Shown here piece by piece: positions 5,330-57,808 of a stretch of 64,000 nucleotides of DNA (position 1 is the first letter of the stretch; the number at the start of each line of letters is the position of its first letter). The stretch is from positions 62,001 through 126,000 of the forward strand of contig CACOWI010000001.1 in the NCBI GenBank assembly GCA_902630885.1. The letters run 5' to 3'. Origin of the DNA: an uncultured SAR86 cluster bacterium. Its GTDB lineage: Bacteria; Pseudomonadota; Gammaproteobacteria; Magnimaribacterales; D2472. The notes below the pieces were generated by a model. That model was given only the letters and a program-made list of their open reading frames with translations, had not been told where the DNA came from and did no database searches. The position numbers and the translations under genes are program-made.

Positions 5330-5337
5330 AAAATCAT

Positions 5338-5343: not shown

Positions 5344-5350
5344 ATCGTTT

Positions 5351-5682: not shown

Positions 5683-5712
5683 TTTTGCTTATAGATAATT
5701 TTTAAGCACATA

Positions 5713-5767: not shown

Positions 5768-5773
5768 TTGAAG

Positions 5774-6241
5774 ATGTTTGGATTTAATACGCCATCAATT
5801 GATAGTAAGGGCAGAATTGCTATTCCTGCAAGGTATAGATTTGACTTCAAAACACAAAATCATAACGAAATTGTTATAACAAAAGATCCTCAGTATCCAT
5901 CTTTAAAACTTTATCATCACTCAGAATGGCAAAGGATTTCAACAAAACTGCAATCCCTTCAGGGCCTTGATCCTATTGTTAGAAATTTACAATGGACAAT
6001 CCTCGGTAATGCTTATCAAACAGATATTGATGTTGACGGAAGGATGCTAGTCAGAATTCCTATGGATCTTCAAAATTATGCTGAAATAAATGAGCAAAAA
6101 CAAGTTGCTCTAGTCGGTATGGGAAATAAATTTGAGATTTGGAATATTAAAAATTGGGAAATGCGACAAACAGGAGGCTCTCTTTCTACAGAGATTCTGG
6201 ACGTTGTACTACCTGAAAGTATTAAAGAAATGTCATTTTAA
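5774..6241 (+). CDS. mraZ: Transcriptional regulator MraZ
   Basis: MraZ is a ring-forming DNA-binding protein of the AbrB/SpoVT superfamily that controls the dcw cluster. The protein (155 residues from this start) has the two repeated half-domains: SIDSKGRIAIPARYR at the N-terminus and DIDVDGRMLVRIP in the second copy. I chose the ATG at 5774 because family members start MFxG/MFxF; the frame is open upstream to 5714, but that stretch is the repeat operator. It lies 11 bp before ftsZ. Confidence 0.93.
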   Translation: MFGFNTPSIDSKGRIAIPARYRFDFKTQNHNEIVITKDPQYPSLKLYHHSEWQRISTKLQSLQGLDPIVRNLQWTILGNAYQTDIDVDGRMLVRIPMDLQNYAEINEQKQVALVGMGNKFEIWNIKNWEMRQTGGSLSTEILDVVLPESIKEMSF

Positions 6242-6252
6242 AGGGGAATATG

Positions 6253-7362
6253 ATGAATTTTGAGGTAGTTGAAACAAAACAAGAAAATGCAAAAATAAAA
6301 GTAGTTGGAGTTGGCGGTGGTGGCGGAAATGCTGTGCTTCATATGATTAATCATGATATTAAGGGCGTAGATTTTATTTGTGCAAATACTGATACTCAAG
6401 CTTTAGAGTCTGTCAAAAGTGCAACTACATTAAAACTTGGAAATGGTTTGACTAAAGGATTAGGCGCTGGAGCAGATCCGGATATTGGTAGAAGAGCTGC
6501 CGAGAGTGACAGAATGGCAATTGAAGAATTATTATCTGGCGCTGATATGGTTTTTATTACCGCTGGGATGGGTGGAGGAACTGGTACAGGAGCTGCACCT
6601 GTAATTGCATCAATTGCTAAGGAATTAGGAGCCTTAACTGTAGCAGTTGTAACTAAACCATTTAAATTTGAAGGAAAGAAAAGAATAGGAGCTGCTGAAA
6701 AAGGACTTGCTGGATTAGTTGAAGAGGTAGATAGTCTCGTAACTATCCCAAATGAAAAACTTCTTGAAATATTAGGACCCGATACTCCTATTGCAGATGC
6801 ATTTGCTAAATCAGATGATGTTTTAAAGGGGGCTGTTCAAGGCATTTCAGACATTATTATGCAAAGAGGACATGTTAATGTTGATTTTGCTGATGTTAAA
6901 GCTGTCATGTCAGAGAAAGGTACTGCGATGATGGGAACTGGAATAGCAACTGGAAAAAATAGAGCGGAAGCAGCCGCAACCATGGCGGTTAAAAGTGAGT
7001 TACTTGATGACATAAACTTAAAAAATGCAAGAGGTGTATTAGTAAATATAACTGGTAAAAGTCCGACTCTTGGAGATCAAACGGAAGTAACAAATATTGT
7101 TGAAGAAATTGTTAGCGAAGATGCGCTAGTTATTTATGGTCTTGTTTTTGACGATAAATATAAAGATGATCTTAAAGTTACAATTGTTGCAACAGGAGTG
7201 GATCAAAAAGCACCTTCTTTAGTAATCGATAATGAACCATCAATGAAATTAAATCCTGTTGGTTTAGATAAAGATAAAACTAGTCAAAAAGTTGGCACGT
7301 CGTCTGCAGAGGAAATTGATTTCCTTGATGTGCCGACTTTTATGAGAAAACAAGTAGACTAA
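6253..7362 (+). CDS. ftsZ: Cell division protein FtsZ
   Basis: Tubulin-like GTPase that forms the division ring. Visible signatures are VVGVGGGGGNAV at the N-terminus, the tubulin motif GGGTGTG, the T7-loop segment VDFADVK, and the C-terminal peptide FLDVPTFMRKQ that binds FtsA and ZipA. The linker before that tail is short (about 35 residues). ATG 6253 is preferred over 6250 because AAGGGGA (6241-6247) is then 6 nt away. Its place is unusual: it follows mraZ at the cluster head, not ftsA at its end. Confidence 0.97.
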   Translation: MNFEVVETKQENAKIKVVGVGGGGGNAVLHMINHDIKGVDFICANTDTQALESVKSATTLKLGNGLTKGLGAGADPDIGRRAAESDRMAIEELLSGADMVFITAGMGGGTGTGAAPVIASIAKELGALTVAVVTKPFKFEGKKRIGAAEKGLAGLVEEVDSLVTIPNEKLLEILGPDTPIADAFAKSDDVLKGAVQGISDIIMQRGHVNVDFADVKAVMSEKGTAMMGTGIATGKNRAEAAATMAVKSELLDDINLKNARGVLVNITGKSPTLGDQTEVTNIVEEIVSEDALVIYGLVFDDKYKDDLKVTIVATGVDQKAPSLVIDNEPSMKLNPVGLDKDKTSQKVGTSSAEEIDFLDVPTFMRKQVD

Positions 7363-7363
7363 G

Positions 7364-8257
7364 ATGCTTCACTTTCCAGTTTTGCTGGAAGAATCCGTTG
7401 ATTTCTTATTAAATGATTTAAATGGTCACTATATTGACTGTACTTTTGGAAGAGGCGGGCATTCGAAGTTAATCTTAGAAAAATTGACTAAAGATGGTTT
7501 TTTAACAGGAATAGATAAAGATCCTGATGCATACGAATATGCAACAAAACTCAAAAATAATAATTTTAAAATCATTAATGATTCATTTAAAAATATTGAA
7601 AAATATTTTGAGGAAGAAAGTATAAGTGGCATTCTTTATGATCTCGGAACATGTTCAACTCATCTTGATCAGCCTGAAAGAGGATTTAGTTTCAACAAAG
7701 AGGGTCCATTAGATATGCGTTTTAATAATAAAACAGGTATCCCACTCTCAGATTGGCTTGAGAATGCTTCAGAAGAACAAATTAGAGACATTCTTTATCA
7801 ATATGGTGATGAAAAACATGCGAAATTAATTAGTAATGCAATTTTTAGAAGCAAAATAAAAAATAAGATCACTACTACAACACAACTTTCAAAAATAATT
7901 AAAGATATATATCCTGAAAAAGATAAAAAAATTCATCCAGCAACTAAATCTTTTCAAGCATTTCGTATTTTTATAAACAATGAGCTTGAAGAAATCACAA
8001 GGTCATTAAAAGCTGCAGAAAAACTTATAAAGTTAGGAGGTTTCATAGTAACAATAGCTTTTCACTCATTAGAAGATAATATAATTAAGAATTTTTTTAA
8101 GCCATCCCTTGTTTCTTTTCCAAAGGACATTCCTTTAAATAATCAACAAGAAAAGAAATTTGTTTGTGTTGCAAAAAAAATTAGGGCATCTAAAGATGAA
8201 ATTAGTATTAATCTAAGATCAAGAAGTGCAATAATGAGGGTCTTTCAAAAGATATAA
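7364..8257 (+). CDS. rsmH: 16S rRNA (cytosine-1402 N4)-methyltransferase
   Basis: RsmH (MraW) methylates N4 of C1402, the same nucleotide modified by RsmI upstream. The 297-residue protein starts with the typical HxPVLLEESVDFL, then YIDCTFGRGGHS (SAM motif I) and GILYDLGTCSTHLDQPERGFSF, and has IAFHSLEDNIIKNFF near the end. The family's LGxSSxQLD reads LGTCSTHLD here. It lies 1 bp after ftsZ, whereas mraZ is normally its direct neighbour. Confidence 0.95.
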   Translation: MLHFPVLLEESVDFLLNDLNGHYIDCTFGRGGHSKLILEKLTKDGFLTGIDKDPDAYEYATKLKNNNFKIINDSFKNIEKYFEEESISGILYDLGTCSTHLDQPERGFSFNKEGPLDMRFNNKTGIPLSDWLENASEEQIRDILYQYGDEKHAKLISNAIFRSKIKNKITTTTQLSKIIKDIYPEKDKKIHPATKSFQAFRIFINNELEEITRSLKAAEKLIKLGGFIVTIAFHSLEDNIIKNFFKPSLVSFPKDIPLNNQQEKKFVCVAKKIRASKDEISINLRSRSAIMRVFQKI

Positions 8258-8262
8258 TTAAA

Positions 8263-8523
8263 ATGAAAATGATACTTAATCACTTATTTTTATTAGTACT
8301 TGTCTTTATCTTAAGTATTGAAAAAATAAAATTATCTTGGGAAATAAGCACCCTTTATAATAACAATGAGAATCTAAAAGTTGAGTTTGAAAACCTTAAA
8401 GATCTTAATCTTAAACTAACGACGCAATTCCATATAGAAAACTCGCCAGCAAATATCGAAAAAATTGCTAAAGAAGATTTAGGAATGATCAAAAAAAGAC
8501 CTAAAAAAGTTAGATATGAATAA
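8263..8523 (+). CDS. ftsL: Cell division protein FtsL
   Basis: Small bitopic divisome protein (86 residues) with one N-terminal membrane helix (about residues 3-20) and a periplasmic coiled-coil-like stretch (NNENLKVEFENLKDLNLKL), ending in a basic tail. It partners with FtsB and FtsQ. Sequence conservation in this family is low; the call rests on topology and on its place between rsmH and ftsI. It overlaps ftsI by 8 bp. Confidence 0.85.
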   Translation: MKMILNHLFLLVLVFILSIEKIKLSWEISTLYNNNENLKVEFENLKDLNLKLTTQFHIENSPANIEKIAKEDLGMIKKRPKKVRYE

Positions 8524-10135
8524 TAAACTTAATTATATAAATTGGAGATTTATACTTATAGCTGCTGTTATTTTAGCTTGTTCGGTAACAATAATTTTTA
8601 AGATTCTTTCAATACAATTTTTTGAAAGTAATTTTCTTCAGAACGAAGGTAATAAAAGGTATGTTAAATACAAAGATGTCGTTCCGGTACGAGGAACTAT
8701 TTATGATCGAAACAATTTCCCATTAGCGGTATCGATAATTAATTATGATCTGTATGCTTTAAAGGGATTTACAAAATCTCAGTTACTTAATATTTCAGAA
8801 AAGATCGAGCTGGATATTGATCCAAAGATTGAGGCTTTCAATAAAAAAACACTTTTGAAGAAAAATATTTCAAATGAAATGTTGTTAAAAATTAGAAACT
8901 CAAGATTTAAAAATATTGAGATAGAGGTCCGTCATAGCAGACATTATCCTTTAGGCGATCAAATTGCGCCTCTAATTGGTTTTTATGGAAAAGATGGAGC
9001 TCAAGAAGGATTAGAGAAAAGTTATGATACAGTTTTGTCTGGTAAAAAGGGGCGACAAAAATATTTCAAAAACGCAAAGCAAGAAATAATTTCAAAACCA
9101 ATTGAGGTATTTAGGACAATTCAAGGAAGCGATATATACCTTACTATTGATAGTACCTTACAGTTTTATGCATACAAGTTCTTAGTTGAGGCCATAAAAA
9201 ATAATAATGCAAAATCTGGAACAGCAATTATTTTAAATAATCTAGATGGGGAGATTTTGGCGATGGCAAGTTATCCATCATACAACCCAAATCATCCTCA
9301 AAGAAAAATACAAAAAAATAGAGCTTTGGTAGATGCATATGAGTTGGGTTCTGTTTTAAAACCTATTGTTTTGTCAAAAGCCCTTGAAGAAAATATTGTA
9401 AATATAGATCAATATATAGATATTCCGAGAAGACTAAATCTTAACGACAAGATTATTGTAGATTCAAAACAATATGAGAAATTAACTCCAGTAGAAATAA
9501 TTTCATATTCTAGTCAAATTGGTGCTTCTAAAATTGCTCTTGAACTTGGATACAAAGATCTAAAATCAAATTTCTATGAATTTGGTTTTACAAAACCAAT
9601 TTCAATTAACTTTCCGTCATCAGCATTTGGTTATATGAGCATTAAAGATAAAATTGTTGATAAGGAACTTGCGAGTTTAGGATATGGTTATGGCTTAACT
9701 ATTAGTCCTTTTCAATTAGCATCAGCTTATTCAGTTTTTGCAAATAACGGAATTTTTAAAGATTTTAAGCTGCTTAAAGATGCAGAAGTGCACTCAAGAA
9801 GAGTGATCTCTAAATCAACTGCCTCAAATATTTTAAAAGCTTTAGAAATGGTAACCATAGACGGAACAGGAAAAGCTGCAAATGTAAATGGATTTTCTCA
9901 AGGAGGCAAGACTGGGACTGCTCATCAAATTAGAGCTGGATCAGGGTATGCTGAAGATTTATATAGAGCTTCATTTGTAGGCATAACACCCTTAAGTAAA
10001 CAATCTCTAACAATATTCGTCTCTATAGATGATCCAGGATTAAACTCATATACAGGAGGTTCAGTAGCAGCTCCTGTTTTTGCAAAAATCGCTGAAAATT
10101 CTTTAAATCATCTAGGATATTTTGAAGATGAGTGA
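8516..10135 (+). CDS. ftsI: Peptidoglycan transpeptidase FtsI (PBP3)
   Basis: Septal class-B penicillin-binding protein, 539 residues. One N-terminal membrane helix (about 12-33) is followed by the pedestal motif RGTIYDRN (59-66) and the transpeptidase domain. The catalytic S279-x-x-K282 box (ELGSVLKP) and KTGT (465-468) are present. The second motif, normally S-x-N, reads S332-S-Q334; the codon at 9515-9517 is CAA. It overlaps ftsL and murE by a few bases, as in a tightly coupled operon. Confidence 0.94.
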   Translation: MNNKLNYINWRFILIAAVILACSVTIIFKILSIQFFESNFLQNEGNKRYVKYKDVVPVRGTIYDRNNFPLAVSIINYDLYALKGFTKSQLLNISEKIELDIDPKIEAFNKKTLLKKNISNEMLLKIRNSRFKNIEIEVRHSRHYPLGDQIAPLIGFYGKDGAQEGLEKSYDTVLSGKKGRQKYFKNAKQEIISKPIEVFRTIQGSDIYLTIDSTLQFYAYKFLVEAIKNNNAKSGTAIILNNLDGEILAMASYPSYNPNHPQRKIQKNRALVDAYELGSVLKPIVLSKALEENIVNIDQYIDIPRRLNLNDKIIVDSKQYEKLTPVEIISYSSQIGASKIALELGYKDLKSNFYEFGFTKPISINFPSSAFGYMSIKDKIVDKELASLGYGYGLTISPFQLASAYSVFANNGIFKDFKLLKDAEVHSRRVISKSTASNILKALEMVTIDGTGKAANVNGFSQGGKTGTAHQIRAGSGYAEDLYRASFVGITPLSKQSLTIFVSIDDPGLNSYTGGSVAAPVFAKIAENSLNHLGYFEDE

Positions 10136-11591
10136 ATACGAAGAAATATTGGGTATCAAAATTCCTAATAATACCAATATTAAAGCTGTAACTAATTCAT
10201 CAAAAAAAGTATTAAAGGATTCAATTTTTTTTGGACTTCAAGGTATAAACGTTCACGGAAGCAATTATGCTGAAGATGCAATTAAAAATGGAGCATCTTT
10301 AGTAGTACATGATGATCCTTTGTACGATAAAAATAATGAAAGAATAATTTTTGCAAAAGATCTTAAAAAAAATATTGTAAGATTTTTAGATTCTTTTTAT
10401 TCAATTGAAATCAATAGTAATAATTTTTTTGCTTTTACAGGAACAAATGGTAAATCCTCGTCTGCATACATTTGTCATCAATTACTTTGTGATTTTGGTT
10501 ATGAATCTTTATATGTAGGCACCCTTGGAATTCAACATAATCATAAAAAAATCCAAACGAAATTTTCAAATAAAACAACACCAGATTTGTTTGAATTATA
10601 TGAAATAGTCAGTTCACTTAAATGGGGTTTAGACTCTATTAGCATATGCTTAGAGGTATCATCTCATGCTCTAGATCAAAATAGGCTTAATGGCATTAAC
10701 TGGCTAAATTCTGCATCAATATTGAATATAGCTGAGGATCATTTGGATTATCACAAGAATGTTTTATCTTATAGAAATTCAAAATTTAGTATTTTTAAAA
10801 TAAATTCATCTTTAAAACTTATTGATGATGAATCTAACAATTTTGTAAAAGACTATGACTTTTTAGATAAAACAGAATTGACATGTATCAGTAACAAAAA
10901 TAATTTCTCTGATATTTCTTATGTGATCACAAAAAACAATTTTAAAAAAACCGAATTCCAAATCTTTCTAAATAATCCACCGTTTGGACAAGAAATACAT
11001 AAAAATAAAAAATATAAATTCAAATGCACACTTTTCCCTGAATTTAATATCTCAAATCTTATATTTGCAATTTGCTCAATAGGATTTGATGAATTTTCTG
11101 ATAAACATATTAATGACCTTTCTTTTATAAAGCTTCCAAAAGGCAGAACCGAACTCATTGATAATATACCTAATAATATAATCATAGACTATGCTCATAA
11201 TGCTCACTCATTTGAAGTATTATTAAGCTCAATTAAAAGCTATTTCGAAAATTTAATTTTAGTCTTTGGTTTTGGAGGAGAGAGAGATAGATCTAAACGG
11301 GCAAAGATGTTGAAGATTGCATTAAAAAATTCGTCAAAAATCTTTTTAACATCTGATAATTCTAGAAGTGAAGCATTTAGGGATATATTGAAAGATGCTT
11401 TGAACGGAAATAATTCAGATAATGTAACAATAATTGAGGATAGAAAAGAAGCAATAATCAATGCAAATAAGTATTTAGACAAAAGTAGTTGTTTGTTAAT
11501 TCTAGGCAAGGGACATGAACAAACTCAAGAAATCAATGGAGAAATATATCACTTTAGTGATCACGAGGTAGTTGATGAAATTTATAAGTAA
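10128..11591 (+). CDS. murE: UDP-MurNAc-tripeptide synthetase MurE
   Basis: Cytoplasmic ligase adding the third amino acid (meso-DAP expected in a gammaproteobacterium) to UDP-MurNAc-L-Ala-D-Glu. It has the N-terminal VTNSSKKVLKDSIFFGLQG region, P-loop FTGTNGKSSSA, and the C-terminal GKGHEQTQ motif. The DAP-recognition motif usually written DNPR reads DNSR here; the Arg is kept. I chose ATG 10128, which overlaps the ftsI stop by 8 bp; a TTG lies two codons upstream. Confidence 0.93.
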   Translation: MSEYEEILGIKIPNNTNIKAVTNSSKKVLKDSIFFGLQGINVHGSNYAEDAIKNGASLVVHDDPLYDKNNERIIFAKDLKKNIVRFLDSFYSIEINSNNFFAFTGTNGKSSSAYICHQLLCDFGYESLYVGTLGIQHNHKKIQTKFSNKTTPDLFELYEIVSSLKWGLDSISICLEVSSHALDQNRLNGINWLNSASILNIAEDHLDYHKNVLSYRNSKFSIFKINSSLKLIDDESNNFVKDYDFLDKTELTCISNKNNFSDISYVITKNNFKKTEFQIFLNNPPFGQEIHKNKKYKFKCTLFPEFNISNLIFAICSIGFDEFSDKHINDLSFIKLPKGRTELIDNIPNNIIIDYAHNAHSFEVLLSSIKSYFENLILVFGFGGERDRSKRAKMLKIALKNSSKIFLTSDNSRSEAFRDILKDALNGNNSDNVTIIEDRKEAIINANKYLDKSSCLLILGKGHEQTQEINGEIYHFSDHEVVDEIYK

Positions 11592-12915
11592 CACATTAGA
11601 TATAGCAAAATTTCTTGATAGAAAGATTAAATTTAATGAAGTTATAAAATCAATCTCAACTGATACAAGATCATTAAAAAAAGACTCATTATTTATAGCC
11701 ATAAAAGGTAAAAATTTTGATGGAAATGATTTTGTTAATGACGCGCTCGCAAAAGGCTCAAATATTGTAATTGCTGATAACAAGCGTTTTAAGAATAATA
11801 AAAATAAAAGAATAATTTACGTCAATAATTCAATCAAAGCGCTTAGGAAAATATCAAATAATATTATCAAAAATTATCTTGGTAACGTTATTGCAATTAC
11901 AGGCAGTAATGGAAAAACTACAACAACAAACATAATAGGTAAAACCTTAAAGAATAATTCAAAAACTTTGAAAAATTTTAATAACGAAATTGGAATGCCC
12001 TTAAGTTTGATGAATGCCTCCTCTGATTCAAAGAACTTAATTTTTGAAATTGGTGCGTCTAAATTTAAAGATATTGATTATCTTAGTAAAATTCTTAAAC
12101 CTAATATTGGAGTAATAACAAATATTGGAAATTCACATTTAGAGTCCCTTAAGAATATTAATGGTGTTTTTCAAGTAAAGTCTGAAATAGTTAAAAATAT
12201 AAAGAAAAATGGCTTTTTAATTGTACCTAATGACAACATGAAACACCTTAGCGCATGGAGAAAAATGAGATCAGATATCACGGTTTTTTCGTTTGGTATG
12301 AATAGCGACGCTGATTTTTATCCCACTGATATTAAGATTAAATCAAATGGACTAAGTTTTTTAGCTACTTCGAGACTGCTTAAAAAAACTATAAAAATAT
12401 CTACATCACTTGAGGGATATCATAATATTAAAAATATTCTTTCAGCTTTTGCTGTTCATTATTGTCTCGGTCAAAATTTACAGCACTTTTCAAAATCAAT
12501 ACGCATATCAAAACTAGATAATTTAAGACAGATAAAACATAAATGGCTTAAAGGATGTACATTAATTGATGACAGTTATAATGCAAACCCAGATTCAACA
12601 AAAAAATCTATTGATTTATTAAGTAATTACAATAAAAAAACTGTCTTATTATTAGGAGATATGTTGGAATTGGGAACATTTAAAAAGAAACTTCATAAAG
12701 AAATAGGGGAATACGCAAAATCTAAAGGAATTAATAAATTGATTGCATTTGGTGAATTAACAAAACATACAATTGAAGCTTTTGGAAAAAACGGTATCTT
12801 TTTTAACGATGAGGCTAAGTTGAAAGATTATTTAAGAAAAAATATAACCTCAAAAAATGTTATCTTAATAAAAGGATCAAGAGGAATGAAAATGGAGAGA
12901 TTTATAGATGTTTGA
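11575..12915 (+). CDS. murF: UDP-MurNAc-tripeptide--D-Ala-D-Ala ligase MurF
   Basis: Adds D-Ala-D-Ala to the cytoplasmic peptidoglycan precursor. The 446 residues include the N-terminal [18 protein letters not shown] motif, P-loop [12 protein letters not shown], the ligand segment [14 protein letters not shown], and the C-terminal [16 protein letters not shown] loop. ATG 11575 overlaps the end of murE by 17 bp; a TTG one codon upstream is less likely. The gene overlaps mraY by 8 bp. Confidence 0.94.
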
Positions 12916-32991: not shown

Positions 32992-33020
32992 TTTAAAAAA
33001 TCGATAATTTGATTTATACT
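32992..33020 (+). promoter_or_regulatory. recA promoter
   Basis: TTTAAA (32992-32997) and TATACT (33015-33020) are 17 bp apart; the predicted start is near 33027, inside the SOS box. A good Shine-Dalgarno, AAGGAG (33036-33041), lies 6 nt before the recA ATG. Confidence 0.5.
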
Positions 33021-33036
33021 GTATAAATATACAGTA
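33017..33036 (+). promoter_or_regulatory. LexA (SOS) box of recA
   Basis: A near-perfect 20-bp operator with the gammaproteobacterial consensus CTGT-N8-ACAG (CTGT at 33019-33022, ACAG at 33031-33034), flanked by TA on both sides. It covers the end of the -10 and the predicted start, so LexA binding would block transcription. It implies a LexA protein is encoded elsewhere. Confidence 0.9.
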
Positions 33037-33047
33037 AGGAGTTAATT

Positions 33048-34055
33048 ATGCCAAAAGCTAAAGATACTACATCAAAAACACTTAAAGATACCTTAGCCGA
33101 TATTGATAATCACTTTGGTAAAGGAACGGTAATGAGGATGGGAGATAGAGAAAATCTGGATATTCCTTCTATTTCAACTGGATCTTTAGGTTTAGACATT
33201 GCTCTAGGAATCGGAGGCATTCCAAAAGGTAGAGTTACAGAAATATATGGCCCTGAATCATCTGGGAAAACAACATTAACATTGCAAATTATTGCTCAAT
33301 GTCAAAAAGAGGGAGGAACATGTGCTTTCATTGATGCTGAACATGCTCTCGATCCTCAGTATGCAGAAAAGCTTGGAGTAAATGTTGATGAGTTACTTTT
33401 ATCTCAGCCTGATACCGGCGAACAAGCCCTTGAGGTTGCAGATATGCTAGTAAAATCAAAGAGCGTAGATTTGGTAATTATTGACTCTGTAGCTGCGTTG
33501 GTCCCAAGAGCTGAAATTGAAGGTGAGATGGGAGATCATCATGTTGGCCTTCAAGCAAGACTAATGTCACAAGCGTTAAGAAAAATCACTGGAAATATTC
33601 AAAGATCAGGCGCAACTGTAGTTTTTATTAATCAAATAAGAATGAAAATCGGTGTTATGTTTGGAAGTCCAGAAACTACAACTGGAGGAAATGCTCTCAA
33701 ATTTTATTCTTCTGTGAGATTAGATATTAGGAGAATAGGTTCAGTAAAAGAAGGCGATGAGGTAATGGGTAATGAAACAAGAGTTAAGGTTGTTAAAAAC
33801 AAAGTTTCACCACCATTCAAGCAAGCTGAATTTCAAATCATGTATGGACAAGGAATCAATCAAGAAGGTGAGATTTTAGATTTTGGAAACAAGCTTGGCA
33901 TTGTCGAAAAGTCTGGAGCCTTTTATAAGCTTGATGGAGAAAGTATTGGTCAAGGCAAAGTAAAAGCTAGCCAATTCCTTAAGGAAAACGCCAAAGTTAG
34001 AGACAAACTTGTTAAAGAAATAAGATCTTCATATATTACAAGTAAATCTAAATAG
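33048..34055 (+). CDS. recA: Recombinase RecA
   Basis: Strand-exchange ATPase and LexA co-protease (335 residues). Motifs: Walker [22 protein letters not shown], Walker [23 protein letters not shown] (as adjoining motifs), loop L2 with [14 protein letters not shown], and [10 protein letters not shown]. The C-terminal tail is short. It has its own SOS promoter and terminator. recX and alaS, frequent neighbours, do not follow. Confidence 0.98.
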
Positions 34056-35289: not shown

Positions 35290-36570
35290 TTATTTATTTT
35301 TAAAAAAATCTAAAATAGTTCTTAATTCTGTGATTGGATTTGCAGAGGTTTCGCCGTTTCTTCCAACAAGCTCAACTTCATTATTCTCAGTGAAATTTTT
35401 ACCAATAATAATATTTAAAGGTATACCTATAAGCTCTGAATCTTTTATTTTCACTCCATATCCATCCTTTCTGTCATCAAGTAAAACAGAATAATTCATT
35501 TTTGAAAGTTCTTTGTACAAATCCTGTGATGCCTTAGCAATATCCTTATTTTTATCATATCCAACTGATATTATGTTTATATCAAAAGGCGCAATACTAT
35601 GGGGCCAAATAATGCCTTTTTCATCATGATTCTGCTCAATTGCTGCTGCAACAAGTCTTGAGACTCCTATTCCATAACAACCCATAAATAAAGTAGATGC
35701 ATTCCCATCAGAATTTAATACACTTGTTTTCATTGATTCAGCATACAGCTTACCTAGCTTGAAAATATGACCAACTTCAATACCTTTTTTAATTTGGATT
35801 GTTCCATTTCCGTCTGGAGAAGGTTTTCCTTCAAGAGAACTAATATCTTCACCATCTTTAAGTAAAAGCTCTGTATTAATTGCAAATTCAGAAGAATCGC
35901 TTACAGCAATAGTATCTTCTCCATTTTCAGCAATTACGTGAAATTCTTCAGAACTATCGCCACCAATTGCACCAGAGTCTGCAGCAGAAATCTTATATTC
36001 CAGACCAATTCTCTCAAGAACTTTTTTATAAGTTTCTCTCATTGTTAAATAAGTTTCTTGTAATGATTTCTCATCAATATTAAAACTGTAAGAATCTTTC
36101 ATCAAAAATTCTCTACCACGCATAATTCCATATCTTGGTCTTACTTCGTCTCTAAATTTTGTTTGAATCTGATAAATATTTAGTGGAAGTTCTCTATAAC
36201 TTTTAACATTAGCCCTAATAACGTCAGTAATTACTTCTTCATGTGTAGGACCTAAACAAAAATCTCTATCATGCCTATCTTTTAACCTAAGCAATTCTGG
36301 ACCCATTTTTTCCCATCTTTTTGTTTCTTCCCATAATTCTCTAGGTTGAACCATTGGCATAAATACCTCTTGAGCTCCCGACTTATCCATTTCTTCTCTA
36401 ACAATATTTTCAACTTTTTTAAGAACTTTTAAACCCAAAGGGAGCCAAGTATAGATACCTGAGGCCACTTTACGTATCATGCCAGCACGAAGCATTAATT
36501 TATGACTTACAATCTCTGCTTCTTGGGGAGCATCCTTAAGTGTAGGTAATAGTAGCTTTGAAAATAACAT
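35290..36570 (-). CDS. proS: Prolyl-tRNA synthetase without editing domain
   Basis: Class II synthetase, 426 residues. Motifs: GIYTWLPLGLKVLKK, motif 2 region FRDEVRPRYGIMRGREFLMKD (adjoining), GGDSSEEFHVIAENGED, GCYGIGVSRL (motif 3), and a C-terminal anticodon-binding domain ending near FFKNK. After the AENGED segment only about 40 residues lead to GIEVGHIFKLG; E. coli ProRS (572 residues) carries the roughly 180-residue INS editing domain here. The short form is typical of Alphaproteobacteria. Proofreading of Ala-tRNA-Pro would need a separate factor. Confidence 0.95.
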   Translation of the reverse strand: MLFSKLLLPTLKDAPQEAEIVSHKLMLRAGMIRKVASGIYTWLPLGLKVLKKVENIVREEMDKSGAQEVFMPMVQPRELWEETKRWEKMGPELLRLKDRHDRDFCLGPTHEEVITDVIRANVKSYRELPLNIYQIQTKFRDEVRPRYGIMRGREFLMKDSYSFNIDEKSLQETYLTMRETYKKVLERIGLEYKISAADSGAIGGDSSEEFHVIAENGEDTIAVSDSSEFAINTELLLKDGEDISSLEGKPSPDGNGTIQIKKGIEVGHIFKLGKLYAESMKTSVLNSDGNASTLFMGCYGIGVSRLVAAAIEQNHDEKGIIWPHSIAPFDINIISVGYDKNKDIAKASQDLYKELSKMNYSVLLDDRKDGYGVKIKDSELIGIPLNIIIGKNFTENNEVELVGRNGETSANPITELRTILDFFKNK

Positions 36571-36905: not shown

Positions 36906-38672
36906 ATGAAATCTCATTATTGCGGTGAAATTACTTCAGCCAATCTCAAAGAGAAAGTTGTTATTTGTGGTTGGATTCATAGAAGAAGAGACCATGGTGG
37001 AGTCATTTTTTTAGATGTAAGAGATATTAAAGGAATATGTCAAGCAGTAGTTAATCCCGACAATAAAGAATCATTTCAATTGGCAGAATCAATTAGAAAT
37101 GAATTTGTTGTTCAAATAGAAGGTTCTGTAAGAAATAGACTCAAAGGAACAATTAATAAAAATATGCATACTGGTGAAATTGAGATAGAAGTATCAAAAA
37201 TTAATATTCTCAGCAAAGCAAATACACCAGTTTTTCCAATCGATGAATATCAAGAGGTTAATGAGGATGTAAGATTAAAAAATAGAGTCCTTGATCTTCG
37301 ACGTCCAGAAATGAATGAGCGTATTATTAAAAGATCAAAAATAACTTCTTTAATTAGAAATTATCTTGATAAAAATGAATTTCATGAGATCGAAACTCCA
37401 ATTCTAACTAAGGCAACTCCAGAAGGGGCTAGAGATTATATTTTGCCCAGCAGAGTACAGCCTGGAAGTTTTTATGCTTTACCTCAATCTCCACAATTAT
37501 TTAAGCAATTGTTGATGATAGGTGGTCTAGATAAATATTATCAAATTGCTAGATGTTTCAGAGATGAAGATTTAAGAGCAGACAGACAACCAGAATTTAC
37601 TCAAATTGATATTGAGGCTTCCTTCCTTGATCAAGAAGAAATAATGAAGCTCAGTGAAAAGATGATTAAAGATATCATAAAAGAGTTCTGTGGAGAGAAT
37701 CTTGAAAAATTTAAGGTGATTGACTGGCATGATGCTATGAAGGATTACGGTTGTGATAAACCAGATTTAAGAATTCCTTTGAAGCTGATAGAGATATCTA
37801 ATCTTGTTATGAATGAGGAATTCAAAGTATTTTCTGATCCTGCAAAAAAAGAAGGATCAAGGGTAGTAGCATTAAAAGTTCCAAACGGAAATTCAATGTC
37901 AAGAGGTCAAATCGATGACTATACTAAATTTGTATCAAAGCTTGGTGCAAAGGGACTTGCATATATTAAAATTAATGACGTTAAAGATCTTGAAAGTGGT
38001 ATACAGTCTCCAATATTAAAGTTTTTAAATAAAGAAACTATTGCAAATATCATTAAAACTCTTGAAGTAAAAACAAATGACTTAATCTTTTTTGGAGCTG
38101 GAACTGAGTCTGTTGTTAATTTATCAATGAGTAGTCTTATAAAAAAATTAGGACATGATTTAGATTTATATGTCTCAAAGTGGGCACCTTGCTGGGTAGT
38201 AAATTTTCCAATGTTTGAATTAAATGCTGAAGGAAGTTTAACTCCGCTTCATCATCCGTTCACTTTGCCAAAAGCATCAAAAAAAGAAATTTTGGAAAAT
38301 CCAAAAGATGCTCTTGCATATGCATATGATGTTGTCTTAAACGGATATGAAATAGGTGGAGGATCCTTAAGAATTTATGATAAAAATATGCAGGAAGCTA
38401 TTTTTGAAATTCTTAACATTTCAAGGAAGGAGGCTGAGACAAAGTTTGGTTTTCTTTTAAAAGCACTATCTTCAGGCTGTCCTCCTCATGGCGGTATAGC
38501 CTTTGGTTTGGACAGAATTGTAATGCTGGTTACTGATACCACAAATATTAGAGATGTTATCGCATTTCCTAAAACTCAAAGCGCGACCTGTCTTTTAACT
38601 GATGCTCCAAGCAAGGTTGATAAAGATCAACTTGATGAGCTTAAAATAATAAGTACACATAAGGAAGAATAA
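36906..38672 (+). CDS. aspS: Aspartyl-tRNA synthetase
   Basis: Class IIb bacterial-type AspRS (588 residues) with N-terminal OB fold (VVICGWIHRRRDHGGVIFLDVRD), catalytic-core motifs including LPQSPQLFKQLLMIGG and RCFRDEDLRADRQPEFTQID, a GAD insertion domain, and the C-terminal PPHGGIAFGLDRIVM motif 3. The presence of the bacterial GAD domain and H32-type region agrees with a discriminating or bacterial enzyme; I cannot distinguish these by eye. yebC follows after 3 bp. Confidence 0.96.
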   Translation: MKSHYCGEITSANLKEKVVICGWIHRRRDHGGVIFLDVRDIKGICQAVVNPDNKESFQLAESIRNEFVVQIEGSVRNRLKGTINKNMHTGEIEIEVSKINILSKANTPVFPIDEYQEVNEDVRLKNRVLDLRRPEMNERIIKRSKITSLIRNYLDKNEFHEIETPILTKATPEGARDYILPSRVQPGSFYALPQSPQLFKQLLMIGGLDKYYQIARCFRDEDLRADRQPEFTQIDIEASFLDQEEIMKLSEKMIKDIIKEFCGENLEKFKVIDWHDAMKDYGCDKPDLRIPLKLIEISNLVMNEEFKVFSDPAKKEGSRVVALKVPNGNSMSRGQIDDYTKFVSKLGAKGLAYIKINDVKDLESGIQSPILKFLNKETIANIIKTLEVKTNDLIFFGAGTESVVNLSMSSLIKKLGHDLDLYVSKWAPCWVVNFPMFELNAEGSLTPLHHPFTLPKASKKEILENPKDALAYAYDVVLNGYEIGGGSLRIYDKNMQEAIFEILNISRKEAETKFGFLLKALSSGCPPHGGIAFGLDRIVMLVTDTTNIRDVIAFPKTQSATCLLTDAPSKVDKDQLDELKIISTHKEE

Positions 38673-38675
38673 TTT

Positions 38676-39413
38676 ATGGCTGGTCATTCAAAATGGGCAA
38701 ACATAAAACACAGAAAGGCAAGACAGGACGCTTCACGTGGTAAGGTTTGGACGAAGGTTATTAGAGAAATCACAGTTGCTGCAAAAGATGGACCTGATCC
38801 AAATGATAATCCTAGATTGAGATTAGCTCTTGAAAAGGCTAATGCAGCAAATATGCCAAAAGACACAATTAATAGAGCAATAGAAAAAGGTTCTGGGACA
38901 GGAGAGACTGGTGAGTTACAAGAAATAGTTTTCGAAGGATATGGTCCTGGAGGAGTTGCTATTTTAGTTGAGACTATGACAGATAACAGAAATAGAACAG
39001 TTTCAGACGTAAGGCATGCATTCTCAAAGTTTGGAGGCAATCTTGGTACTGACGGATCTGTTTCATATTTATTTAAAAAATTTGGAATAATTCATATTAA
39101 TAAGAATTATTCTGAAGAGAAGCTTATGGAGAATGTAATCGAATCTGGAGCACAAGATTTTACAGAGGAAGATGATTTCTTTGAAGTGACAACGGATCCC
39201 AATGAATTTAATACGGTCATTGATTTTTTTAAAAAAAATGGAATCGAATATATTAATGCTGAACTGACTTTAAGGGCAGATACGCTTGTAGATCTTGATC
39301 AAGATATGTCTGAAAAAGTTTTAAACATTATGGAATTTATGGATGATCTTGATGATGTTCAAGAAGTTCATACTAACGCAGAATTCCCAGAAAATTTTGT
39401 AATAAAGGAATAG
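38676..39413 (+). CDS. yebC: YebC/TACO1-family protein
   Basis: Conserved protein of 245 residues starting MAGHSKWANIKHRKARQD with NMPKDTINRAIEKG and GYGPGGVAILVE. YebC-family proteins were long called transcriptional regulators; recent work links them to translation of proline-rich stretches. In E. coli and Pseudomonas it is followed by ruvC. Here a different nuclease gene takes that place, 3 bp downstream. Confidence 0.96.
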   Translation: MAGHSKWANIKHRKARQDASRGKVWTKVIREITVAAKDGPDPNDNPRLRLALEKANAANMPKDTINRAIEKGSGTGETGELQEIVFEGYGPGGVAILVETMTDNRNRTVSDVRHAFSKFGGNLGTDGSVSYLFKKFGIIHINKNYSEEKLMENVIESGAQDFTEEDDFFEVTTDPNEFNTVIDFFKKNGIEYINAELTLRADTLVDLDQDMSEKVLNIMEFMDDLDDVQEVHTNAEFPENFVIKE

Positions 39414-39416
39414 ATT

Positions 39417-39842
39417 TTGTCAATTAACTCAAGAAATAAGGGAGCGGCATTTGAAAGGCAGATAGCTAATGCATTAATTGACGACCTTAACCTCAAGAAT
39501 CCAGTAAAAAGAATTTTAGAACAGACTCGAACAAAGGAGCTACCTGATCTAATGCTTGGAAATTGGTGTATTGAATGCAAGGCATATGGCGCTGGTGCAG
39601 AACCTAGGCCAGATTGGTGGGAGCAAGTGCTTGCTTCATCAAATCAGGAAGGTCTGAGACCTGCACTTGTGTATAAATTCAATAATAGACCAATCAAAGT
39701 TCGTATATTAGCAAACTCAATTAATAATAATATTAAGAATAATCTAGTCACTGTGGATCTTTTGTGGCCAGATTTTATACAAATAATACTTGAATTGTTT
39801 CAGGAAGATATAGAGCTGCATGAAAAAAACTATCAAGTGTAA
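39417..39842 (+). CDS. PD-(D/E)XK nuclease, putative Hjc-like Holliday junction resolvase in the ruvC locus
   Basis: Unrelated to RuvC (RNase H fold). The 141 residues show a PD-(D/E)XK active site with Hjc-like order: E13 in KGAAFERQIANAL, P43-D44, and E53-C-K55 in WCIECKAYG. Archaeal Hjc uses the same Glu, Asp, Glu-x-Lys set after a KGxxFERE start. A PDWWEQV segment follows. It begins at TTG 39417 with AAAGGAA at 39404-39410. It lies between yebC and ybgC, where ruvC-ruvA-ruvB normally stand, so it may resolve Holliday junctions. Biochemical function is inferred only. Confidence 0.75.
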   Translation: MSINSRNKGAAFERQIANALIDDLNLKNPVKRILEQTRTKELPDLMLGNWCIECKAYGAGAEPRPDWWEQVLASSNQEGLRPALVYKFNNRPIKVRILANSINNNIKNNLVTVDLLWPDFIQIILELFQEDIELHEKNYQV

Positions 39843-40230
39843 CGATATAGAATTTAAAATATATGTGGAGGATACAGACTTTCAAGGTGTTGTGTATCAT
39901 GCAAATTACTTAAAATATTTTGAAAGATCAAGATCTGAATTTCTTTCAAATGCTAATATTTCTCAAAAAAACTTAAGAGAAAACAATACAGCATTTGTAA
40001 TAAAAGGCATCAAAATTAACTATTTGAAAGCCGCTGAACTTGGAGATCAAATAGTTGTCCAAACAAGTGTAGAAAAAAAATCTAAAGCGCGAATGATCTT
40101 TTATCAAAATGTAATACATAAAATTACAAGAAAAGAGTTTGTAAATGGAGAAGTTGAGGTTTGTTTTATAGATCTGACAACAAAAAAACCAAAAAAGTTT
40201 CCGGATGATTTATTATTAATTTTTGACTAG
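39820..40230 (+). CDS. ybgC: YbgC-type acyl-CoA thioesterase
   Basis: Hotdog-fold thioesterase (136 residues). The 4HBT signature YVEDTDFQGVVYHANYLKYFERSRSEFL is visible as adjoining motifs, with the catalytic Asp in DFQGVVYH. YbgC is encoded at the head of the tol-pal operon in many proteobacteria and interacts with phospholipid-synthesis proteins in E. coli. It overlaps the nuclease gene upstream by 23 bp and precedes tolQ by 9 bp. Confidence 0.93.
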   Translation: MKKTIKCNDIEFKIYVEDTDFQGVVYHANYLKYFERSRSEFLSNANISQKNLRENNTAFVIKGIKINYLKAAELGDQIVVQTSVEKKSKARMIFYQNVIHKITRKEFVNGEVEVCFIDLTTKKPKKFPDDLLLIFD

Positions 40231-40239: not shown

Positions 40240-40911
40240 ATGGATGATATATCAGTATTAAATCTAATATTAGAAGCTGGAGCTTTCGTAAAGATAGTCA
40301 TGTTAATTCTTTTTATTGCCTCAATACTATCTTGGATAATAATTGTTGAAAGATATATTTTTTTTAGAAAAGTAAAAACTACTAATGATAATTTTTTGAG
40401 AATTTTTTGGAGTGGGAAGGATCTTGATGTTTTATATGAAGAGGTTTTAAAAGATGATGATCTATACGCAGCAAGAAACTTATTTAAAAATTCCTTTAAT
40501 GAATTTAATTCAATCAAGGTCGGAGATAGCATTTCTGAATTAGATTTAGAGAGTATTAATCGCTCGATGAGAGTTTCGATTGCTTCTGATGAGGAAGAAA
40601 TGAATAAACATCTAACTTTTTTGGCTAACGTAGGTTCAGTTAGTCCTTATGTTGGATTATTAGGTACAGTTTGGGGAATAATGACATCTTTTATGGGTCT
40701 TTCAGACGCAACACAAGCAACTATAAACGCTGTAGCGCCCGGAATATCAGAAGCCTTAATCGCCACTGGAATGGGGTTATTTGCAGCTATACCAGCAGTT
40801 GTTGCATTTAATAAATTTACATCTGAATCAGAGACTATCAGTCAAGGAACATTAATTTTTGCAGAGGAGTTGGCAAGTATTTTTTATAAACAATCTATTG
40901 ATAAAAAATAA
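40240..40911 (+). CDS. tolQ: Tol-Pal system protein TolQ
   Basis: MotA/TolQ/ExbB-family proton-channel subunit (223 residues) with three membrane helices: one near residues 15-35 and two in the C-terminal half around FLANVGSVSPYVGLLGTVWGIMTSF and the TGMGLFAAIPAVVAFNKF region. It forms the motor with TolR (next gene, 1-bp overlap) that energises TolA during outer-membrane constriction. Confidence 0.94.
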   Translation: MDDISVLNLILEAGAFVKIVMLILFIASILSWIIIVERYIFFRKVKTTNDNFLRIFWSGKDLDVLYEEVLKDDDLYAARNLFKNSFNEFNSIKVGDSISELDLESINRSMRVSIASDEEEMNKHLTFLANVGSVSPYVGLLGTVWGIMTSFMGLSDATQATINAVAPGISEALIATGMGLFAAIPAVVAFNKFTSESETISQGTLIFAEELASIFYKQSIDKK

Positions 40912-41333
40912 TGATATATAGACTAGCAAAAAAGAAAAATCTTAAAGCAGAAATCAATGTGGTTCCATATATAGATGTAATGTTAGTTTTACTTATCATC
41001 TTTATGGTTTTATCACCATTATTAATTCAAGGTGTTGAGGTAGATTTACCCCAAACTGATACTACCAAGATGAGTGTTCAAAATGAACCTCTTGTTATTT
41101 CAATTGATAAAAATGGAAATTATTTTATAAATGTTGGAGAGGAATCACTCTCAATTGATTTAAACGAATTAAAAAGAAAATCTGAAGTTATTTTTAAAGC
41201 AAATCCTGAGATTGAAGTAGTTTTTCAAAGTGACAAAGATGTTGCTTTTGACTTTGTAGCAAAAGCTATGGCATCTGTTCAAAGTGTGGGGATTACTAAA
41301 GTTGGAATTGTTACAAGCGGATATGAAAATTAA
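40911..41333 (+). CDS. tolR: Tol-Pal system protein TolR
   Basis: ExbD/TolR-family protein (140 residues). One N-terminal membrane helix with the proton-carrying Asp in INVVPYIDVMLVLLIIFMV, then GVEVDLP and a periplasmic domain (LVISIDKNGNYFIN to VGIVTSG). It partners with TolQ. The C-terminal end overlaps tolA by 11 bp. Confidence 0.95.
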   Translation: MIYRLAKKKNLKAEINVVPYIDVMLVLLIIFMVLSPLLIQGVEVDLPQTDTTKMSVQNEPLVISIDKNGNYFINVGEESLSIDLNELKRKSEVIFKANPEIEVVFQSDKDVAFDFVAKAMASVQSVGITKVGIVTSGYEN

Positions 41334-41940
41334 CCAAATATATTTAGAGGCCTCTTTTATATCTTTCCTGATTCATGCATCAATTATTCTTTATCTTCTT
41401 GGATTTTTTTACTACGAATCTCAAGAAAAGTCGGTATTGAGTAAACCGATTGAGGTTAGTCTGATATTTGAAGAAAGTGTTGAAATGAAAAATCAAGTCA
41501 ACCGAAAATTAGAACCAAAAAAAATTGAAAATGATAATAGTTCAGATGAGGTAGTGCCGGATAAATCTATCTCATTCGATTCTTTAATACCATCGCTAAC
41601 CTTGAAAGACTTAATCGCCGAAGACGAATTGATATCAAAAGAATCACAAGAAAATCAAGTCGAGCTATATAGCTCTCTAATTATAAAAAGTATTCAATCA
41701 GCCTGGCGAAAACCAATGAATATTCAAGATGGCTTGGTTTGCGACCTTAGACTTTCAATAAATAAAAATGGAAGAATCACTGATGTAAATTTAATTAAAA
41801 GTAGCGGAAATTTAAGATTTGATAATTCAGCAATAAAGGCTGTGCAAAGGGTAGAAACTTTTAGTTTTCTAAAAGATCTTTCGTATAGTTTATATAACTC
41901 AAACTTTAAAAGTATAGTTATTACATTTAACCCCTCATGA
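41323..41940 (+). CDS. tolA: TolA, short form
   Basis: Links the TolQR motor to Pal at the outer membrane. An N-terminal membrane helix (about 12-30) with the SFLIHASI start is followed by a short charged linker and a C-terminal domain III: SIQSAWRKP, LVCDLRLSINKNGRI and SSGNLRFDNSAIKAV. It has 205 residues against about 421 in E. coli; the long Ala/Lys-rich helical domain II is nearly absent. ATG 41323 fits the family start; the frame is open to 41284 inside tolR. Confidence 0.88.
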   Translation: MKINQIYLEASFISFLIHASIILYLLGFFYYESQEKSVLSKPIEVSLIFEESVEMKNQVNRKLEPKKIENDNSSDEVVPDKSISFDSLIPSLTLKDLIAEDELISKESQENQVELYSSLIIKSIQSAWRKPMNIQDGLVCDLRLSINKNGRITDVNLIKSSGNLRFDNSAIKAVQRVETFSFLKDLSYSLYNSNFKSIVITFNPS

Positions 41941-43193
41941 AAAAGATACTTTTTATATTAATATTTTCCAATTTTGTTATTTCAGAGCTGGTGTTAGAGA
42001 TTACTCAAGGAACTGAGAATCCATACAGAGTTGCTATCTTAAAATTTGAGGGCGATCAAACAGTTTCAAATAATATAAATAAAATAATAAGGAACAATCT
42101 TAAAAGATCAGGTGAGTTTGATTTATTTGTAAATGAAGATTTACTATCTTTTCCAACAAATGAGACAGAAATTATATTTAATGATTTTAAAATTTTAAAT
42201 ATCGACTATCTAGTTCTTGGTAAAATTATTAAAGATGGTCTAAATATATCTGTCGTATACGAAATCTTTGATATTAATAAAGGGAAAAAAATAAGAACTT
42301 CAACTGTTTATGGCATACCAAACAAAAATCGACAATTAGGCCATTATGTCAGCGATGGGATTTATGAGGAAATAACTGGCATTAAGGGAATTGCTTCAAC
42401 AAAAATTCTTTATGTTACTGAGAACGAAAGTTTTAATCTTATGGTTGCAGACGCTGATGGCAGTAATGAACAAATACTTTTAAAAAGTGATGAGCCTATA
42501 ATATCTCCTGCATGGTCTCCAGACTCTAAAAAGGTTGCATATGTGTCATTTGAAACAGGAATGGCAAAGGTTTTTATTCAAGATATAGCTTCAGGTAAGA
42601 GAGAGCTTGCAATTGAAAATTCATCTCAAATTAGCTCTCCGTCTTGGTCGCCTGATGGAAAATTCTTATCATTGACAATGTATCAAGATGGAAATGCAGA
42701 AATTTATATACTTAATTTAAAAAATAAAAATTTAACACGGTTGACTAATCATTATTCTATTGATACTGAGTCATCATGGTCTCCAAAGGGATCAAGAATA
42801 ATGTTTACATCAGGAAGATCAGGATCTCCTCAATTATACGAAATCGATTTGAGACGCTTTAATGCAAAACCAAGAAGAATTACGTTTGATGGCAATTACA
42901 ATGCGAAGGGCTCCTATTTGCCTAATAATGATGGATTTGTATTTGTTCATAGAGAAAATTCAAGCTTTCAAATTGCAATAAAATATTTTGATGAAAATTT
43001 TATAAGACCTTTAACCAACGCACAATTAGATGAATCTCCTAGTATTTCACCTAATGGAAATGTTATAGTTTATGCTATTAAAGACGATGGTATGGGCTTG
43101 TTAGCTGGAGTAACTTTGAGCGGCGCAAAGTTTAGATTGCCTGCAAAAATTGGCTATGTAAGAGAGCCCGCATGGTCCGGCTTTTTAAGATAA
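41937..43193 (+). CDS. tolB: Tol-Pal system protein TolB
   Basis: Periplasmic beta-propeller that binds Pal and releases it from peptidoglycan. A signal peptide (first about 17 residues), an N-terminal domain with ENPYRVAILKFEGD, and propeller repeats marked by PAWSPDSKKVAYVS, PSWSPDGKFLSLT and SSWSPKGSRIMFTSGR. The 418 residues are normal. It overlaps tolA by 4 bp. Confidence 0.96.
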   Translation: MKKILFILIFSNFVISELVLEITQGTENPYRVAILKFEGDQTVSNNINKIIRNNLKRSGEFDLFVNEDLLSFPTNETEIIFNDFKILNIDYLVLGKIIKDGLNISVVYEIFDINKGKKIRTSTVYGIPNKNRQLGHYVSDGIYEEITGIKGIASTKILYVTENESFNLMVADADGSNEQILLKSDEPIISPAWSPDSKKVAYVSFETGMAKVFIQDIASGKRELAIENSSQISSPSWSPDGKFLSLTMYQDGNAEIYILNLKNKNLTRLTNHYSIDTESSWSPKGSRIMFTSGRSGSPQLYEIDLRRFNAKPRRITFDGNYNAKGSYLPNNDGFVFVHRENSSFQIAIKYFDENFIRPLTNAQLDESPSISPNGNVIVYAIKDDGMGLLAGVTLSGAKFRLPAKIGYVREPAWSGFLR

Positions 43194-43208
43194 TTATACG
43201 GAGAAAAT

Positions 43209-43697
43209 ATGTTTATATTAAAAAATAAGTTTAATCTTTTAATTGCTATACTTTTTTTATCCTCATGTTCAAGCATGAATGTTACTGAAGAAAGAGTTTA
43301 CTCTGGTGATGTAAAAACTGTTCAAGCATCATCCTCAGCTGATGATAATATTAGATTTGATAGCAAGGCAGTCTTTGCAAGTGCCACGATATATTTTGAA
43401 TTTGATAAATCTAACTTAACAAGCAAATCAATTCAAACCCTTAAGAGTGCAGTAAATGCTTTAAATGAGAATACTTCAATCCAAATTACACTCTCTGGCC
43501 ATGCAGATGAAAGAGGAACACGAGAATACAATTTAGCCCTTGGACAAAGAAGAGCTGAGACTGTTAGTGATTATTTTGTTCTAAATGGAATTAATAAAAA
43601 TAGAATAACTGTCAAAAGCTTTGGCGAAGAGAGACCAGCTGTAATTGGTCAAGATGAAATGAGTTATGCAAAAAATAGAAGAGTTGAAATTAATTAA
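43209..43697 (+). CDS. pal: Peptidoglycan-associated lipoprotein Pal
   Basis: Outer-membrane lipoprotein binding peptidoglycan. Signal peptide with lipobox LSSC (Cys20), then an OmpA-like C-terminal domain with IYFEFDKSNL and LSGHADERGTREYNLALGQRRA, which holds the diaminopimelate-binding Asp and Arg. The 162 residues match the family. It overlaps cpoB by 1 bp. Confidence 0.96.
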   Translation: MFILKNKFNLLIAILFLSSCSSMNVTEERVYSGDVKTVQASSSADDNIRFDSKAVFASATIYFEFDKSNLTSKSIQTLKSAVNALNENTSIQITLSGHADERGTREYNLALGQRRAETVSDYFVLNGINKNRITVKSFGEERPAVIGQDEMSYAKNRRVEIN

Positions 43698-56712: not shown

Positions 56713-57808
56713 CTGGATTAAAAGAAAGAAAACCAAAGTCTTAAATGTTGGCAATGTTCCTGTTGGTGGCAACAATCCAATTTCTATCCAATCTATGACA
56801 AATACAAACACTTGTGATGAGGTTTCAACTATAAAACAAATTAAAGATCTTGAAGCTGCTGGTGCAGATATTGTAAGAGTTTCTGTTCCAGGATTTGATG
56901 AAGCAAAGGCATTCAAAAAGATAAAAAATGCCGTAAACGTGCCACTGGTTGCTGACATTCATTTTGATTACAAAATTGCTTTAGAGGTTGCTGATTCTGC
57001 TGATTGCCTGCGAATAAATCCTGGTAATATTGGTAAAGAGGATAGGGTAAAAGAAGTTATAAGTGCAGCAATTGATAATGATGTTCCTATAAGGGTGGGT
57101 GTTAATGCTGGTTCACTAGAAAAAGATCTTCAAAAAAAATATGGTGAGCCAAATGCTGATGCTCTAGTGGAGTCAGCACTTAGACATGTTGATATTCTTG
57201 ATAAATTCAATTTTGAAAATTACAAAATGAGTCTCAAGGCATCAAATATCGAGATGACTGTAGATGCATACAGAAAAATTTCAAATATTATTGATCAACC
57301 TCTTCATCTTGGAATCACAGAGGCTGGTAGTTATAGAGCTGGGACGGTAAAGTCATCTATCGGAGTTGGAATGCTTTTATCAGAGGGAATTGGAGATACT
57401 ATTCGTATTTCTTTAGCATCTGACCCTGTAGACGAAATCAAAATTGGATGGGATATCTTAAAAAGTCTTAATTTAAGAAGTAGGGGAGTTAAAATTGTTG
57501 CGTGTCCAAGTTGTTCTCGCCAAAATTTTAATGTCATTGAAGTTGTTAACGAACTAGAACAAAGATTAGAAGATATTTCTGATGATATAGAAGTTGCTAT
57601 TATTGGTTGTTATGTCAATGGTCCTGGGGAGAGTAAAGCTGCGAACATTGGATTAACTGGAGCAAGTCCTAATAATCTTTTATATGTTGATGGTACACCA
57701 AATAAAAAAATCTCTAATCAAGATCTTGTAAACGAACTTGAAGAGCAAGTAAGATCAAAAATTTCAAAACAAAAGATTGAATCTGAAAAGATCATTTTAA
57801 GAAGCTGA
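56705..57808 (+). CDS. ispG: 4-hydroxy-3-methylbut-2-enyl diphosphate synthase
   Basis: Fe-S enzyme (GcpE) of the MEP pathway, downstream of IspF. Motifs: [45 protein letters not shown] and CYVNGPGES with the cluster cysteines. 367 residues. Together with ispDF it shows isoprenoids are made by the MEP route. rodZ-ispG-hisS order is classical. Confidence 0.96.

Follow-up and report, generated by a model that had tools for sequence, protein, structure and literature searches.

A phage-type, Hjc-like nuclease gene in the ruvC-ruvA-ruvB position of SAR86 bacteria

Gene content and order of the locus

The window analyzed here is a stretch of 64,000 nucleotides from an uncultured SAR86 cluster bacterium, a SAR86-order member whose assembled genome measures 1.06 Mb and is 79% complete. 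Its gene order reads aspS-yebC-nuclease-ybgC-tolQ-tolR-tolA-tolB-pal, matching in coordinates and neighbors the original prediction made from the DNA, which had viewed the nuclease as a possible replacement, perhaps from phage, of the RuvABC resolvasome. The features used below are as follows (positions in the window).

33019..34055, + strand: SOS box CTGTATAAATATACAG (33019-33034) and recA (33048-34055)
36906..38672, + strand: aspS, conserved upstream neighbor
38676..39413, + strand: yebC, upstream neighbor, with its stop codon 3 bp 5' of the nuclease start
39417..39842, + strand: Hjc-like PD-(D/E)XK nuclease gene, 141 aa, TTG start; predicted stand-alone Holliday junction resolvase
39453..39581, + strand: codons of Hjc-equivalent residues, from profile alignment to Pyrococcus furiosus Hjc and conservation in 62 homologues (E13, 39453-39455; R32, 39510-39512; D44, 39546-39548; E53, 39573-39575; K55, 39579-39581; R14 also lies in this stretch)
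39820..40230, + strand: ybgC thioesterase gene, overlapping the nuclease gene by 23 nt
40240..43697, + strand: tolQ-tolR-tolA-tolB-pal, conserved downstream block

Between positions 36500 and 40300, no terminators were predicted and no promoter signal rose above chance. Upstream of the locus, a perfect SOS box lies 13 bp 5' of the recA ATG, as expected if the genome keeps an SOS-controlled RecA, and RecA strand exchange is retained in the genome of the window. A second perfect SOS-box-like site, CTGTAGATGCATACAG, is found away from recA (57258-57273, + strand). The window also encodes a prolyl-tRNA synthetase of 426 aa (35290-36570, - strand), which we take to be the short form with no inserted editing domain; such a domain is usual in Gammaproteobacteria.

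Family, fold and active site of the nuclease

At the family level, the protein belongs to PF24608 (PDDEXK_15, phage putative PDDEXK endonuclease), scoring 42.1 bits where the cut-off is 27 (E = 1.1e-10), and the same model matches all 62 homologues. In PHROGs it is assigned to phrog_244, as are all 15 SAR86 members scanned. The label of that family, "RusA-like Holliday junction resolvase", is an annotation only; despite it, the SAR86 protein has no RusA-family match in Pfam (PF05866, E up to 10). The Pfam Hjc model (PF01870) gives no match to the window protein at E up to 10 either, and matches one of the 62 homologues, weakly (E = 0.029). Because this model misses the protein, our claim is that it probably works like Hjc, with PF24608 as its formal family. 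We observe no Pfam match to the RuvC domain (PF02075), no NCBIfam match and no plasmid match, and PDB sequence searches with the protein and two profiles returned nothing useful.

A structure model generated from the 62 homologues (pLDDT 88.7, pTM 0.85) points toward the archaeal Holliday junction resolvases. The top 14 Foldseek matches of this predicted fold in the PDB are all archaeal Hjc/Hje, and the model superposes on P. furiosus Hjc (1gef) with a VIA-align Z of 10.3 (rmsd 2.7 over 102 residues) and on Sulfolobus solfataricus Hje (1ob8) with a Z of 10.2. RecU chains score well under Hjc (Z of ~6), and no RecU match was found in Pfam. In a profile-profile comparison with four Hjc/Hje sequences, the nuclease family reached 95% (E = 2e-8), while the controls, comprising RuvC and eight column-shuffled profiles, reached at most 0.3% (RuvC alone, 0.1%). 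The similarity to Hjc exists at the profile and fold level only, with sequence identity of ~20%.

The alignment places E13, R14, R32, D44, E53, and K55 on P. furiosus Hjc residues E9, R10, R25, D33, E46, and K48, respectively. E13, E53, and K55 are invariant across the 62 homologues, as is R32, with D44 kept in 58 and R14 in 61 of them. P. furiosus Hjc requires three residues of its motif, an Asp, a Glu, and a Lys, for activity (Daiyasu et al., cited in PMC8805305). The set E13, D44, E53-x-K55 named in the original prediction is present in the order seen in Hjc, and the description of the protein as Hjc-like and devoid of RuvC features agrees with the fold search, with the profile comparison and its clean controls, and with the catalytic residues. 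The structural searches did not place it in a restriction or repair family lacking junction activity.

Absence of RuvABC and occupancy of the ruv slot across SAR86

No RuvC, RuvA, or RuvB domains were found in the genome of the window, and a search for intact ruvC and ruvAB elsewhere in that genome likewise found none. RuvC is absent from all 199 SAR86-order genomes examined, including the 40 of high quality. In a sample of the class it is present in 284 of 303 Gammaproteobacteria but in none of the four genomes sampled there from the SAR86 order. RuvA exceeds the cut-off in a single SAR86-order genome (1/199; L248, G192:C98), where it lies on a 3.2-kb contig of a 120-contig assembly adjoining an RND efflux gene and is a likely contaminant; a further match, in G121, falls under the cut-off. 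The C-terminal domain specific to RuvB (RuvB_C) was found in none of 61 SAR86-order genomes, 36 of them of high quality. The generic RuvB_N model does match 198 of the 199 genomes. We reject these matches as evidence of RuvB because they are weak (best scores of ~27 to 36 bits), those inspected are ClpX and DnaX, and RuvB_C is missing. Two genomes of the small-genome gammaproteobacterial genus g60 (family f42; G240 and G486, ~1.1 Mb, 97 to 98% complete) lack RuvC and also lack this nuclease; that genus may have arrived at a different solution.

The position of the nuclease gene was compared with 40 RuvC loci drawn from non-SAR86 Gammaproteobacteria. Here, yebC-ruvC is seen in 35 loci and ruvC-ruvA-ruvB in 33, with the full order yebC-ruvC-ruvA-ruvB-ybgC in 21 and the others having no match for one neighbor; none of the 40 contains the nuclease gene. 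In SAR86, the order yebC-nuclease-ybgC is found, as far as the contigs extend, in all 19 loci of the window's own family and in all 80 loci of named SAR86 genomes, and the position is also kept in loci from the other three families of the order. The single locus read from the fourth family among these shows yebC-nuclease-tolQ with no ybgC match. Relatives of the nuclease in named genomes are mostly from SAR86 cluster bacterium loci, with identities of up to 96%. The conservation of this order in own-family, named, and three-family loci excludes a chance arrangement. The nuclease is an in-place replacement of ruvC-ruvA-ruvB, and the displacement first suspected from one locus extends across the order, in a slot that elsewhere holds the three ruv genes.

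The gene itself was recovered from 177 of the 199 SAR86-order genomes, from 38 of the 40 high-quality genomes, and from all 22 genera sampled. The shortfall from 199 is consistent with assembly incompleteness, and the two high-quality genomes with no match (G005 and G052) likely reflect assembly gaps, since 38 of 40 are positive at a completeness of ~93%. In the rest of the class we find four scattered, weak carriers among 299 genomes, and since all four also possess RuvC, the nuclease does not generally accompany loss of RuvC. Pairwise dN/dS values of 0.013 to 0.043, from genus-level pairs with unsaturated synonymous sites, show that the gene is under strong purifying selection.

Further factors of branch migration and resolution were surveyed across the order. 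RadA/Sms occurs in almost all bacteria. Over the cut-off it was found in 10 of 14 controls and in none of 41 SAR86-order genomes (28 of high quality). The matches observed in SAR86 were rejected because they are below the cut-off and lie in frames of ~800, 340, and 460 to 480 aa, lengths that correspond to Lon, RecA, and DnaB. RecG is present in SAR86 families f2 to f4. Within the window's own family it is present in genera g5 and g7, but none was found in the window's genus (g1) or in g3, g8, and g9, where the best match is Mfd; in the window's genus, these matches lie in frames of ~1,090 aa. RecG thus appears to have been lost in the branch formed by g1, g3, g8, and g9 (including G000) and kept in g5, g7, and the other families, which offers a natural series on when RecG becomes dispensable. 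With RadA/Sms being another branch-migration factor (PMC4786428), and RuvAB, RecG, and RadA all undetected, no canonical branch-migration motor was detected in the window's lineage. The absence of recG from the window's genus makes the change larger than the original prediction had supposed.

These observations could be read differently, although we think it unlikely: the protein would be a structure-specific or repair PD-(D/E)XK nuclease acting on forks, flaps, or damage, junctions would be handled by YqgF/RuvX or by helicase-topoisomerase dissolution, and the filled slot would be a coincidence of ruv deletion. YqgF/RuvX, which is found in nearly all bacteria, is present in 40 of the 41 SAR86 genomes, and the fold and motif of the nuclease are common to other nuclease families (restriction, repair). 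YqgF/RuvX has also been proposed as a resolvase, without demonstration (PMC1193525), and viral resolvases tend to cleave many branched structures (PMC3864405). However, YqgF accompanies RuvC or RecU in most bacteria (PMC1193525) and therefore does not constitute a replacement specific to SAR86. In addition, the best matches of the predicted fold are all Hjc/Hje, the correspondence of R14 and R32 to Hjc R10 and R25 goes beyond the generic catalytic set, the nuclease is fixed order-wide in the exact ruv slot, and recombination genes surround its phage homologues.

Phage kinship, proposed mechanism and relation to known resolvases

Relatives of the nuclease are found on at least 347 viral contigs and in marine phages, Roseobacter phage CRP-821 being one of them. 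Foldseek searches against predicted viral proteins return sequences from phages and archaeal viruses that bear the name Holliday junction resolvase. In CRP-821, CRP-811, and the SAR86 region L055, the homologue adjoins a RecE-like/exonuclease VIII-type nuclease and a helicase-primase. A gp2.5-like single-stranded DNA-binding protein is encoded nearby in CRP-821 and CRP-811, with an unassigned protein of similar size in its place in L055. Among the neighbors of 22 distinct viral homologues, RecE-like exonucleases occur with 9 members and helicase-primases with ~10. L055 (G095:C4:46000-58400, positions 4504-12399) is a phage-like region of a SAR86 genome carrying a second resolvase, 38 to 39% identical, which has the RecE-like exonuclease on one side and a small protein followed by the helicase-primase on the other; tail and terminase genes lie further out. 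Other members of the family are thus still carried by phages or prophages of SAR86.

In a phylogenetic tree, 25 SAR86 sequences together with two viral sequences (L149 and L150) form a clade supported at 99/99 inside the viral diversity. The SAR86 sequences as a sole group receive weak support (42/63), and the direction of transfer rests on this tree, whose proteins are short and whose branches are long. The phage link made in the original prediction gains from the many viral relatives, from their recombination and replication neighborhood, and from this tree. The simplest reading would be one phage capture at the base of SAR86, with the direction from phage to host inferred. L149 and L150 (5995-6414) are viral contigs with structural genes, and nearby predicted proteins were judged by eye to be curlin-repeat-like and FecR-like. 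Their proteins are 52 to 53% identical to that of the window, and it is possible that they represent SAR86 phages that swapped the gene with their host; such viruses may have taken a SAR86 copy back.

The position of these two sequences within the SAR86 clade would also fit the reverse direction, with viruses having acquired the gene from SAR86. We regard this as improbable, since it fits L149 and L150 only: the other viral diversity sampled (at least 347 contigs) branches outside that clade, and Gammaproteobacteria sampled more widely contribute only the four scattered, weak carriers. Still further from the evidence, and to our mind barely credible, is a homing-type, restriction, or phage-defense nuclease inserted by chance in the operon with no role in recombination, for although restriction systems often contain PD-(D/E)XK nucleases and one phage relative adjoins DNA methyltransferase genes, the gene occurs in all 22 genera with dN/dS of ~0.01 to 0.04, no methyltransferase, specificity, or immunity gene adjoins it in SAR86, and no ordinary ruv locus among the 40 holds it.

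We therefore favor, with a probability of roughly 0.85, a phage-origin resolvase of the Hjc type that was captured once by a SAR86 ancestor, replaced ruvC-ruvA-ruvB in place, and has been a core gene since. RuvC cuts at preferred sequences, and RuvAB is thought to carry it there (PMC1193525). Viral and Hje-type resolvases, on the other hand, show little sequence preference (PMC3864405, PMC8805305), and so a phage resolvase could work without a motor. In the proposed mechanism, RecA would first form joint molecules, and a putative homodimer of the nuclease would then bind the four-way junction via the basic residues R14 and R32 close to its active site. Two paired nicks would be made across the junction by a metal centre formed by E13, D44, E53, and K55. 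If the enzyme has little sequence preference, as we presume, no RuvAB would be needed to move the junction onto favored sequences, and this would explain how one gene could replace three. Capture of the enzyme would thereby have made RuvAB dispensable, with RecG being lost later in one SAR86 branch. There are published precedents: phage bIL67 encodes a RuvC that by itself makes E. coli delta-ruvABC UV resistant again (PMC3864405), and Hjc_15-6, a phage enzyme resembling Hjc, cleaves junctions (PMC8805305). A broader proposition, for which we would give even odds, is that the SAR86 order, made up of abundant free-living bacteria, finishes RecA-dependent recombination with one phage-derived resolvase, in the window's lineage without the RuvAB, RecG, or RadA motor, and that the resolvasome is dispensable given a sequence-indifferent resolvase.

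SAR86 bacteria are among the most abundant in the surface ocean (PMC11582366). The paper on the first SAR86 isolate describes a systematic lack of several marker genes for recombination and repair, and its main text contains no mention of Ruv proteins or a resolvase (PMC11582366). A resolvasome swap would account for this unexplained gap. Among the openly available papers searched, we found no description of a RuvABC replacement in SAR86 and no paper covering both SAR86 and RuvC. Among 117 bacterial genomes surveyed previously, RuvAB was missing in only two with RecA, both keeping RecG, and both RuvC and RecU were missing in only ten (PMC1193525). With the in-place swap and the loss of RecG in one branch, the idea that branch migration is needed only because of RuvC selectivity becomes testable, and SAR86 is a clear example of a core DNA repair machine being displaced by a gene from phage.

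Compared with known systems, the SAR86 protein resembles archaeal Hjc/Hje (PF01870; 1gef, 2wcw, 1ob8) in its modeled fold (Z of ~10), in the order and spacing of E-D-ExK, in the two arginines, and in being small and single-domain with no RuvAB partners. It differs in its ~20% identity, below detection by the Pfam Hjc model, in its bacterial host and location in the ruv slot, and in carrying an additional invariant Q36 and a WW-x-Q motif (67-70). It is a direct member of PF24608/phrog_244, but phage members of this family reside in replication and recombination modules, whereas the SAR86 copy is fixed in the chromosome as a core gene. Hjc_15-6 of Thermus phage Tth15-6 (7bnx; PMC8805305) is likewise of archaeal type with an E...D...ExK motif and has been shown to cut four-way junctions; it reads E-SD-EVK and is a phage gene, in contrast to the E-PD-ECK of the SAR86 protein and its proposed role as a cellular replacement. 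The bIL67 RuvC is also a phage resolvase that suffices alone in E. coli delta-ruvABC (PMC3864405), but it has an RNase H fold and represents a laboratory result, whereas the SAR86 case is an evolutionary replacement. The RuvABC resolvasome places RuvA and RuvB beside the resolvase, while SAR86 has RuvB_C in 0 of 61 genomes and RuvA in 1 of 199, the likely contaminant. RecU, which takes the place of RuvC in Firmicutes (PMC1193525, PMC3403352), is similarly a non-orthologous resolvase with the same broad nuclease fold; however, genomes with RecU retain RuvAB and usually encode recU elsewhere, whereas in SAR86 both RuvA and RuvB are gone and the gene sits in the ruv slot. The replacement of RuvC by RecU with RuvAB kept was known, and what we regard as new here is the replacement of the whole resolvasome, in place.
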